Source: Pleomorphomonas diazotrophica
Lineage (GTDB): Bacteria > Pseudomonadota > Alphaproteobacteria > Rhizobiales > Pleomorphomonadaceae
Length of the DNA: 64,000 nucleotides
Assembly: GCF_002844595.1 (NCBI RefSeq)
Contig: NZ_PJNW01000009.1
Location: 248,001 to 312,000, forward strand
Direction of reading: 5' to 3'
Of the stretch, positions 25,740 through 43,908 are shown piece by piece. Made by a program: the position numbers and the translations under genes. How positions within the stretch are numbered: the first letter of the stretch is position 1; every line of letters begins with the position of its first letter. The notes beneath the pieces were generated by a model. That model was not told the origin of the DNA and ran no database searches. It saw nothing but the letters and a program-made list of their open reading frames with translations.

Positions 25740-26116
25740 CCAGTCGGTCGGACGACCGCGCGGACATCAGGCGAAAGCCCGTCCGGGAGGAAAGTCCGGG
25801 CTCCACGGAAACACGGTGCCGGGTAACGCCCGGCGAGGGCGACCTCAGGGAAAGTGCCACAGAGATCGAACCGCCCCGGTGCGCCGGGGTAAGGGTGAAA
25901 AGGTGGTGTAAGAGACCACCGCGGGCCCGGCAACGGGACCGGCATGGCAAACCCCACCGGGAGCAAGACCGAATAGGGATGACGCGGGCCTCGGCCCAGC
26001 CTGTTTCCGGGCCAGTCGTCCGGGTTGGTTGCACGAGGCGTCCGGCAACGGCCGTCCCAGATGAATGGTCGTCAGGCGGGAAACCGCTCACAGAACCCGG
26101 CTTACAGACCGACTGG
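25740..26116 (+). ncRNA. rnpB: RNase P RNA, bacterial class A
   Basis: The conserved core is clear: GAGGAAAGTCCGGGCTCC near 25796 at the 5' side and ACAGAACCCGGCTTACAG at 26091-26107 at the 3' side. The ends pair: 25740-25749 CCAGTCGGTC is complementary to 26107-26116. Length about 377 bases. The RNA is the catalytic subunit that trims tRNA 5' ends. Open frames on either strand here are spurious. The boundaries rest on the terminal stem and could be off by a few bases. Confidence 0.95.
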
Positions 26117-26136
26117 CTTTTCCGTCTTTCGCCGCG

Positions 26137-42824: not shown

Positions 42825-42858
42825 TCTGCAAACTGTCGAGTGGTCGGCGGCGCCCCCA

Positions 42859-42955
42859 GCATCGGACCGAAAAGTGGAATCCGGTTTTCGGAACATCCGA
42901 TGCACGACAGAAATCCAGAGCGGTGGCCCGGATACATCCGGGCATCTGCCGCTCT
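42859..42955. repeat. Two intergenic hairpins of a repeat type common in Hyphomicrobiales
   Basis: A hairpin at 42859-42903 has outer arms GCATCGGA/TCCGATGC and inner arms CCGAAAA/TTTTCGG. A second at 42917-42955 has AGAGCGG/CCGCTCT and CCCGGAT/ATCCGGG arms. The CCGAAAA-N-CCGGTTTTCGG core occurs in many rhizobial intergenic repeats. Confidence 0.7.
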
Positions 42956-43102
42956 AGCGCCCGCCGGGTGGGGCATGGGAGCCATTCGCCTTCCGCAAGG
43001 CTCGATAGCGTCCGTGCAAGCAGGCCGATAACTGAACCGAGAAGGGTAGTTTTCTCAGGCGACTAGCTGTTTTGCCTCGGCAAAAGCGTTGCCCTGGCTA
43101 AC

Positions 43103-43119
43103 ATGCAAATGACTTGCAT
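43103..43119. promoter_or_regulatory. Mur/Fur-like box upstream of mntP
   Basis: ATGCAAATGACTTGCAT is a 17-base near-palindrome matching the alphaproteobacterial Fur/Mur type TGCAAAT-N-ATTTGCA closely in the outer positions. It lies about 70 bases upstream of the riboswitch. Mur is the manganese-responsive Fur homologue in this order. A second palindrome, TTTTGCC-TC-GGCAAAA, is at 43070-43085. Confidence 0.5.
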
Positions 43120-43159
43120 TTTCAGCTAAGTATTTGAAGTTGCTTGATAATATATCTCG

Positions 43160-43300
43160 TTTCGGGTATCGAACTCGCATCGGGGAGTAGCCACCGTCGC
43201 CTGAGACGGGACCGCGTCAACATGCTCGCACTCATTGCGTGGCGCGGTCGGCCGAAAGGTCCGGCAAGACCGTGGTGACGCCATCTTCGAGCGAGGTGTG
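43160..43300 (+). promoter_or_regulatory. yybP-ykoY manganese riboswitch
   Basis: CGGGGAGTAGCC at 43181-43192 is the conserved 5' loop, and GGTCCGGCAAGACC near 43258-43271 is the conserved 3' loop with its short helix. Between them a GACCGCG/CGCGGTC hairpin forms the variable arm. The element lies ahead of mntP, its most usual target in proteobacteria: Mn2+ binding turns on efflux. Boundaries are approximate. Confidence 0.78.
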
Positions 43301-43338
43301 CCGACGTCATCCGGTTTTGCGCTCGACTGGTACCGCCG

Positions 43339-43908
43339 ATGTCTCCGATCTCCATCGCCGTGCTCGCCGTGGGCATGTCCATCGACAGCCTGCTTGCCTC
43401 GGTCGGCGGCGGCGCCAGCCTCCGGCGCCAGTGCCGGCTCTGCGATGCGATCCTGGTCGGCATTGTCTTCGCGGTCGTGCAGATGATCACGCCCTTGCTC
43501 GGCTGGGCGGCCGGTGCGGCCGCCAGCTCCTATGTGGCGAGCTTCGATCACTGGCTGGCCTTCGGCCTCCTGACGCTGGTGGGCGGCCGCATGGTTCTCC
43601 TGGCCTTCCGCGCCGAGGAGGAGGGCGCTCCGGAGGCAAGCTTCATCGGCACGCCGGTGACGCTGCTGCTCACCGCCGTGGGCACGTCGATCGACGCCAT
43701 GGCCGTCGGCGTGTCGCTCGCCTTCGTCAAGGCCAACATCGTCGTCATCGTGGCGGCGATCGGCGCGACGACATTCCTGATGTCGGCCGGCGGCGTGATG
43801 ATGGGCCGGCTGATCGGCAACAGATTCGGCCGGTCGGCCGAAGTGGTCGGCGGCCTCGTGCTCATCGGCCTCGGCTGCCTGATCCTGCGCGAGCATCTGA
43901 TCGGCTGA
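43339..43908 (+). CDS. mntP: Manganese efflux pump MntP
   Basis: Encodes 189 residues with six helices in two repeats. Each repeat has the Mn-binding Asp motif: GMSIDSLLASVGGG near the N terminus and GTSIDAMAVGVSLAF near residue 116. It exports Mn2+ and protects against manganese excess. The ATG lacks a strong ribosome binding site, consistent with riboswitch-gated translation. Its last 47 bases overlap the convergent MFS gene. Confidence 0.93.
   Translation: MSPISIAVLAVGMSIDSLLASVGGGASLRRQCRLCDAILVGIVFAVVQMITPLLGWAAGAAASSYVASFDHWLAFGLLTLVGGRMVLLAFRAEEEGAPEASFIGTPVTLLLTAVGTSIDAMAVGVSLAFVKANIVVIVAAIGATTFLMSAGGVMMGRLIGNRFGRSAEVVGGLVLIGLGCLILREHLIG

Follow-up and report, generated by a model that had tools for sequence, protein, structure and literature searches.

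Among the closest described systems, mntP of Escherichia coli is activated by manganese-loaded MntR, carries the yybP-ykoY riboswitch and reportedly is under the control of Fur as well (PMC11647493). Paired MntR sites lie there at around 170 bp from the promoter (PMC11275975), and the MntR sites that we found in the E. coli mntP sequence agree with this position. The gene is also listed in a Fur iModulon together with ftnA (PMC10164565), and 90 nt ahead of its aptamer the sequence contains a candidate Fur-like core, AATGAAAATCGTT, that departs from the pattern at one position. In Bacillus subtilis, MntR represses import and activates export at mneP and mneS, with four cooperative sites at mneP (PMC11275975). 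Mur has been described as a repressor of sitABCD and mntH in Rhizobium leguminosarum (PMC5575495), and the Mur protein of Deinococcus radiodurans, DR0865, as a positive regulator of mntE, whose expression measured by qRT-PCR was 24- and 54-fold lower in the mutant; in the absence of DR0865 the manganese import genes rise (PMC4171365). The mechanism of gene activation by Fur and DtxR proteins has been called unclear (PMC11275975). For rhizobia and Brucella, the table of a 2023 review names EmfA and exporters of YiiP type and, in its accessible part, no alphaproteobacterial MntP (PMC9936198). We found no description of Mur at an alphaproteobacterial mntP in the literature searched; RegPrecise and the 2006 reconstruction of the alphaproteobacterial Mur/Irr/RirA regulons, which lay outside that search, may list mntP.

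The stretch of DNA analysed here (the window) comprises 64,000 nucleotides of a Pleomorphomonas genome. On its plus strand, a gene at 43339-43908 was identified as mntP, a manganese efflux pump, by its match to the profile PF02659 (153.4 bits, cut-off 24.4; E 4.9e-45). With the NCBIfam equivalog NF008546 it reached 157.1 bits, below the cut-off of 214, in such a way that the protein is in the Pfam family but misses the equivalog cut-off. Nine relatives with 88-96% identity were found, seven in Pleomorphomonas records and two in MAGs named Proteobacteria bacterium, and among 14 genomes of the genus a close orthologue was present in 12, a 57% relative alone in one, and none in the remaining one. 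In four genus genomes (loci L019-L022) there is also a second copy of mntP, a paralogue with 56-58% identity, in which the start motif of the riboswitch is present.

The first-pass annotation had placed a yybP-ykoY riboswitch in front of mntP. A covariance-model match to this Mn2+ riboswitch (RF00080) was found at 43170-43333 of the plus strand, just ahead of the gene, with a score of 53 bits against a gathering cut-off of 45 and an E value of 3.2e-11 in the window, thus confirming both the element and its place before mntP; its aptamer is recognisable from GGGGAGTAG at 43182. The mntP leader was the only match to RF00080 in the whole genome at E <= 0.001. When 13 leaders of the genus were aligned, three of them from paralogous mntP genes, two-sided changes that keep the pair were detected in 11 of the 47 predicted pairs. 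GGGGAGUAG and the GUCAACA loop letters were invariant in all 13 leaders, and GUCAACAU ended with U in 10 of them and with G in the other three. The conserved loop letters expected of RF00080 are present in the genus leaders, and the element is predicted to act as a Mn2+ switch. No intrinsic terminator that could serve as the expression platform was found in the mntP leader, whose fold is stable, though not unusually so (z -1.35), and the switch may work through translation, Rho or another mode. The window also contains a class A RNase P RNA (25740-26120, 302.5 bits).

Upstream of the riboswitch a Mur/Fur-type palindrome had been reported, and at 43103-43119 (plus strand) there is a 17-bp Mur-type inverted repeat, ATGCAAATGACTTGCAT, one mismatch away from TTGCAARTNMNTYKCAW and the sole site of the window within two mismatches of the 17-mer consensus. 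The distance of 62 bases to the riboswitch was also right, counted from the end of the palindrome to the start of GGGGAGTAG. In the genus the palindrome is conserved as the first 17 bp of a 22-bp block (43103-43124, plus strand) with the consensus TTGCAAATGAnTGTCATTTTCA, found within 3 mismatches in 12/12 close orthologues. The conserved unit therefore exceeds the palindrome first reported, and its register is partly shifted, with a Fur-like core, AATGA-N3-TCATT, centred 3 bp downstream. Species with TTGCA as the right half show a near-perfect TTGCAART-N-AYTTGCAA repeat; the remaining species have GTCAT, ATCAT or GTCAC in its place, which gives or approaches the Fur-like core.

The same order is kept in the 12 orthologues: TTGCAAATGAnTGTCATTTTCA, an A+T-rich stretch, TTGAT[A/T], 17 bp, TAT[C/T] and the aptamer, with a constant 78 nt from the box to GGGGAGTAG, while the DNA upstream of the box diverges. 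In the window, all on the plus strand, the A+T-rich gap from the operator to the -35 element spans 43120-43143 and may be a contact zone for the alpha subunit of RNA polymerase; the -35 hexamer TTGATA lies at 43144-43149 (TTGAT in 12/12 orthologues), and the -10 hexamer TATCGA follows after 17 bp at 43167-43172, in such a way that transcription would be expected to start around 43179. Both hexamers were read from the alignment alone, and a scan with the strict sigma-70 consensus gave no promoter at mntP. Further upstream of the operator, GAGAAGGGTAGTTTTCTCAGG and its neighbours (43033-43066) are similar in several orthologues of the genus.

A second palindrome had been put forward as well, TTTTGCC-TC-GGCAAAA (TTTTGCCTCGGCAAAA, 43070-43085, unstranded). 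The sequence is there, but it is not conserved and is probably not an operator, as none of the other 11 close orthologues has a perfect repeat of its size in the region 80-160 nt ahead of the aptamer. The window as a whole contains 49 perfect repeats with arms of 7 bp and spacers of 0-4, whereas 20 shuffles of it contained 47 on average (38-66). Within the 345 nt at 42825-43169 there were two, against a mean of 0.12 in shuffles, at least one being present in 10% of 500 shuffles; the tally counted three, two of which are one nested repeat at 42926-42943. We thus rejected an operator role for this palindrome, which is missing in the other 11 orthologues and at chance level window-wide, though locally somewhat unusual. 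The nested position holds the perfect repeat GCCCGGATACATCCGGGC (42926-42943), in the same intergenic stretch.

Three proteins of the Fur family are encoded in the genome. The first is 70% identical over 135 amino acids to PDB chain 5fd6 (recorded as ferric uptake regulation protein), which we take to be Mur of R. leguminosarum, and by sequence it is a Mur orthologue. The second is Irr (223 bits, cut-off 150), and the third was read from its sequence as a putative Zur. RirA is also encoded, its score of 193.0 bits being equal to the cut-off (193), and so is MntR, with 188.8 bits against a cut-off of 153, from a gene divergent from mntH.

A 17-mer consensus was written from the mntP and mntH sites, without using sitA. 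Allowing up to one mismatch, it produced 14 strand-hits (11 sites) in the whole genome, against 0 for the reversed-pattern control. The two exact matches lie 5' of sitA and at mntH, and sites with one mismatch are found at mntP, at the flavodoxin gene fldA and at the gene of an FTR1 iron permease; at six of the 11 sites (L223-L226, L228, L229) no obvious target gene was seen. The name sitA is based on PF01297 and on an adjacent ATPase of a Mn/Fe-type ABC system, cut by the end of the locus, and by eye its box lies within the presumed promoter. In the genus, the motif is located just upstream of the -35 element of mntH in 12/14 loci by the strict pattern, and a palindrome of MntR type by resemblance, TGTAGCnnnTGCTATA, overlaps the -10 element. 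Neorhizobium mntH has two Mur-type sites around 13 bp apart upstream of the gene. At sitA (L221, 1500-1560) the exact Mur box is followed by an MntR-like GCCTAGGCTA, which suggests a double control of import.

With the strict 21-bp pattern, four matches were obtained in this genome, corresponding to mntP, to one site near a proteasome-like gene and to two sites at 3 mismatches. Upstream of a proteasome-like gene (PF00227) there is a classical Fur box, TTGCAAATGATTATCATTTnTA (L098, 1500-1521; G000 C11:283685-283706), with equivalents in 12/14 genus genomes, this one included; on that strand it is followed by a strongly conserved leader of more than 150 nt, which could be an iron-regulated RNA. 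In two relatives (L126, L127) a similar box precedes a periplasmic binding protein that we read as an iron- or heme-type one.

The presence of the box at other mntP loci was analysed with a matrix built from the 12 genus sites, which was run over the 120 nt before the aptamer of 40 other loci: 35 from outside the genus in which GGGAGTAG precedes the gene, plus five more distant copies from the genus (L017, L019-L022), leaving out L037 as a duplicate of L017. The threshold was the score that 1% of shuffled sequences attain, and 19 of the 40 loci passed it, all of them on the plus strand and 72-82 nt before the aptamer. Related copies inflate this count, because L049, L052, L053, L054 and L090 belong to a single cluster and because L055 pairs with L056, L050 with L051 and L042 with L057; at 70% identity the 40 loci make 31 clusters, and passing sites occur in 12 of these. 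The passing loci come from records named Neorhizobium, Rhizobium, Endobacterium, Brucella haematophila, Bosea, Stappia, Paracoccus, Pseudooceanicola and Oceanicola. The other 21 loci remained below the threshold, some with weaker sites at the same place, and six of them are not alphaproteobacterial. Among the genus paralogues, L019, L021 and L022 show degenerate sites only, and L020 none.

As a control, a class-wide survey with RF00080, used for this purpose only, detected the riboswitch in 57/385 genomes, with 55 loci where the start of the aptamer is readable, and only one of these 55 passes the matrix threshold. Downstream of the riboswitch, 43 of the control loci encode the motif GD[K/R]TQ, typical of UPF0016 proteins, and nine have an MntP match, one of these nine showing both. 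A Fur-family box in front of an mntP riboswitch is, considering E. coli mntP, not unique to this genome.

The two layers can also be found apart. In L032, L040 and L046 no riboswitch is detected at E <= 0.01 and a Mur-type box is retained upstream of mntP, with a TTGACT -35 element visible in L032 and L046; these three were the only ones with a box (up to two mismatches) among 15 scanned mntP loci without GGGAGTAG. L034, which also lacks the riboswitch by Rfam, has no box at up to two mismatches. With respect to the protein, 19 of 20 genomes probed encode a Mur/Fur orthologue (43-72% identity), and the exception is Mesorhizobium comanense, which has only a 26% relative. Alone among the 20, this genome carries an MntR box, ATAGCCTAGGCTAT, before the riboswitch of mntP, and by eye its mntH has an MntR-like sequence. 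Among the 19 Mur-bearing genomes, 12 have a passing site and five a sub-threshold one (L033, L035, L036, L043, L060); L044 and L093 encode the orthologue and yet have no site at mntP. The riboswitch-less loci with a box and the Mur-less genome with an MntR box support therefore that the layers are separable and that the box goes with Mur, a separation seen in three riboswitch-less loci and a correlation with Mur loss seen in one genome.

Taken with the conservation in the genus, the sites at other mntP loci, the motif at sitA and mntH, and the Mur orthologue, the MntR box of the Mur-less genome supports the proposal of a Mur/Fur-type operator combined with a riboswitch, and we regard 43103-43124 with high confidence as a predicted Mur/Fur operator. 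The mode of action was approached through its position. Between the end of the 17-bp box and the -35 element there are 19-27 bp in 32/33 loci measured; the value of 14 in L014 corresponds to an internal TTGAT, the alignment giving this locus the spacing of its relatives, whereas L060 was dropped for want of a TTGAC and the -35 element of L017 is uncertain. The centre of the box lies roughly 63-71 bp before the expected start in these loci. The gap between box and promoter has a mean of 72% A+T against 40% upstream of the box, and is the richer of the two in 33/33 loci. In 32/33 loci the site is thus upstream of the -35 element without overlapping it, a class-I-type position, and its distance to the promoter varies by 8 bp, not by whole helical turns. 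With this A+T-rich gap of 19-27 bp separating box and -35 element, activation appears likelier than repression, such geometry being suited to a contact with the alpha subunit of the polymerase and not to simple occlusion. A manganese exporter should furthermore rise with manganese, as the riboswitch implies, which also favours activation, and there are precedents in D. radiodurans Mur at mntE (PMC4171365) and in MntR at E. coli mntP (PMC11647493). We infer that the protein bound is Mur, that its effector in the cell is Mn2+ rather than Fe2+ and that the effect is activation, and hold with moderate confidence that the site activates mntP in response to manganese.

Accepting these assignments, high cytoplasmic Mn2+ would lead Mn-loaded Mur to occupy 43103-43124, a site whose centre precedes the expected start by around 65-68 bp, and from there Mur would recruit RNA polymerase to TTGATA-17-TATCGA across the A+T-rich gap, as an activator of class-I type. 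The transcript would begin essentially at the riboswitch, and the Mn-bound switch would permit the expression of mntP, while the same Mur would repress import at sitABCD and mntH from sites placed against or within the presumed promoter. We consider it probable that the control of mntP combines two manganese sensors acting in series, an activating Mn-Mur and the riboswitch.

Since fldA, FTR1 and the iron- or heme-type binding proteins of two relatives carry the motif too, Fe2+ may also be the metal. The same Fur-family protein could act as an iron sensor, in such a way that iron sufficiency, and not manganese, switches the transcription of mntP as a device to balance iron and manganese. The membership of E. 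coli mntP in a Fur iModulon with ftnA (PMC10164565) would agree with it, as would the Fur-like core in that species, at 90 nt from the aptamer, and the fact that the Paracoccus orthologues are only 43-45% identical. However, this genome encodes Irr and, at the cut-off with its 193.0 bits, RirA, and it was in a setting with RirA and Irr that Fur became Mur in rhizobia. The 70% identity with the chain taken to be R. leguminosarum Mur also argues against an iron sensor, and so do the two exact matches of the motif, at sitA and mntH, even considering that the mntH sites helped to write it. On balance we see iron sensing as an unlikely explanation.

Fur-family proteins mostly repress, and Mur or Fur could do so here, for instance if it extended along the DNA from the box to cover the -35 element, keeping mntP low until the riboswitch opens. 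Such a role would be in line with the repression of sitABCD and mntH by Mur in R. leguminosarum (PMC5575495), but the distance between box and -35 element differs from that at sitA, whose box was placed by eye within the presumed promoter, the repression of a manganese exporter by manganese would oppose the riboswitch, and the precedent in D. radiodurans is a positive one (PMC4171365), all of which makes a repressor improbable. As to MntR, it is encoded here above its cut-off (188.8 bits against 153), and exact MntR boxes precede the riboswitch in L038, L065 and L193, so that it could be the protein layer, with the palindrome being a relic or a mere UP element for the polymerase. Nevertheless, a box of ATAGCC type at up to one mismatch is found in 0/12 mntP upstream regions of the genus (160 nt before the aptamer), despite the presence of such a palindrome at the -10 element of mntH, and in our judgement the base-level conservation of the palindrome goes beyond what an A+T-rich UP element needs. 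MntR was accordingly rejected as the protein layer in the genus, and we give this last alternative very little credit.

The arrangement here has in common with E. coli that the same riboswitch precedes the gene of a manganese exporter, with upstream sites for metalloregulators and a Fur-like core, and it differs in that the activator described there is MntR, whereas here no MntR box is seen and the Fur-family site is the sole candidate. The first-pass annotation had spoken of a different wiring, which was overstated, as E. coli mntP is reportedly regulated by Fur too (PMC11647493) and has a Fur-like core, and as MntR is also encoded in this genome, although no MntR box was found at mntP of the genus. 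With the rhizobial Mur regulon there is in common an orthologous regulator and TTGCAA-type boxes at sitA and mntH here and at Neorhizobium mntH, although its known role is the repression of import and the site at mntP lies upstream of the promoter. As with DR0865 of D. radiodurans, a Fur-family manganese regulator would be needed for the expression of a manganese efflux gene, the exporter there being mntE, with no riboswitch mentioned in the accessible part of the paper (PMC4171365). MntR at mneP and mneS of B. subtilis likewise represents a single manganese sensor for the repression of import and the activation of export, but it is a DtxR-type protein, and those genes have no riboswitch (PMC11647493).

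What is new here is that in many Alphaproteobacteria a Fur-family box appears to be the recognisable protein layer at mntP and to go with Mur, which offers a candidate regulator for mntP-type manganese export in this class. Tentatively, and with slightly less than even confidence, the scheme may extend to bacteria of Rhizobiales and Rhodobacterales type, in which Mur would be a two-way switch, repressing import and activating mntP from an upstream site of nearly constant position, with the riboswitch in series and either layer able to be lost, the Fur-like box of E. coli being part of the same old arrangement. The natural variants without a detectable riboswitch, together with the swap of regulator, could make the sensing of one metal by protein and by RNA experimentally separable, and the mntP promoter, which is natural and compact and has a single conserved site at an almost constant distance, lends itself to the study of activation of Fur type.
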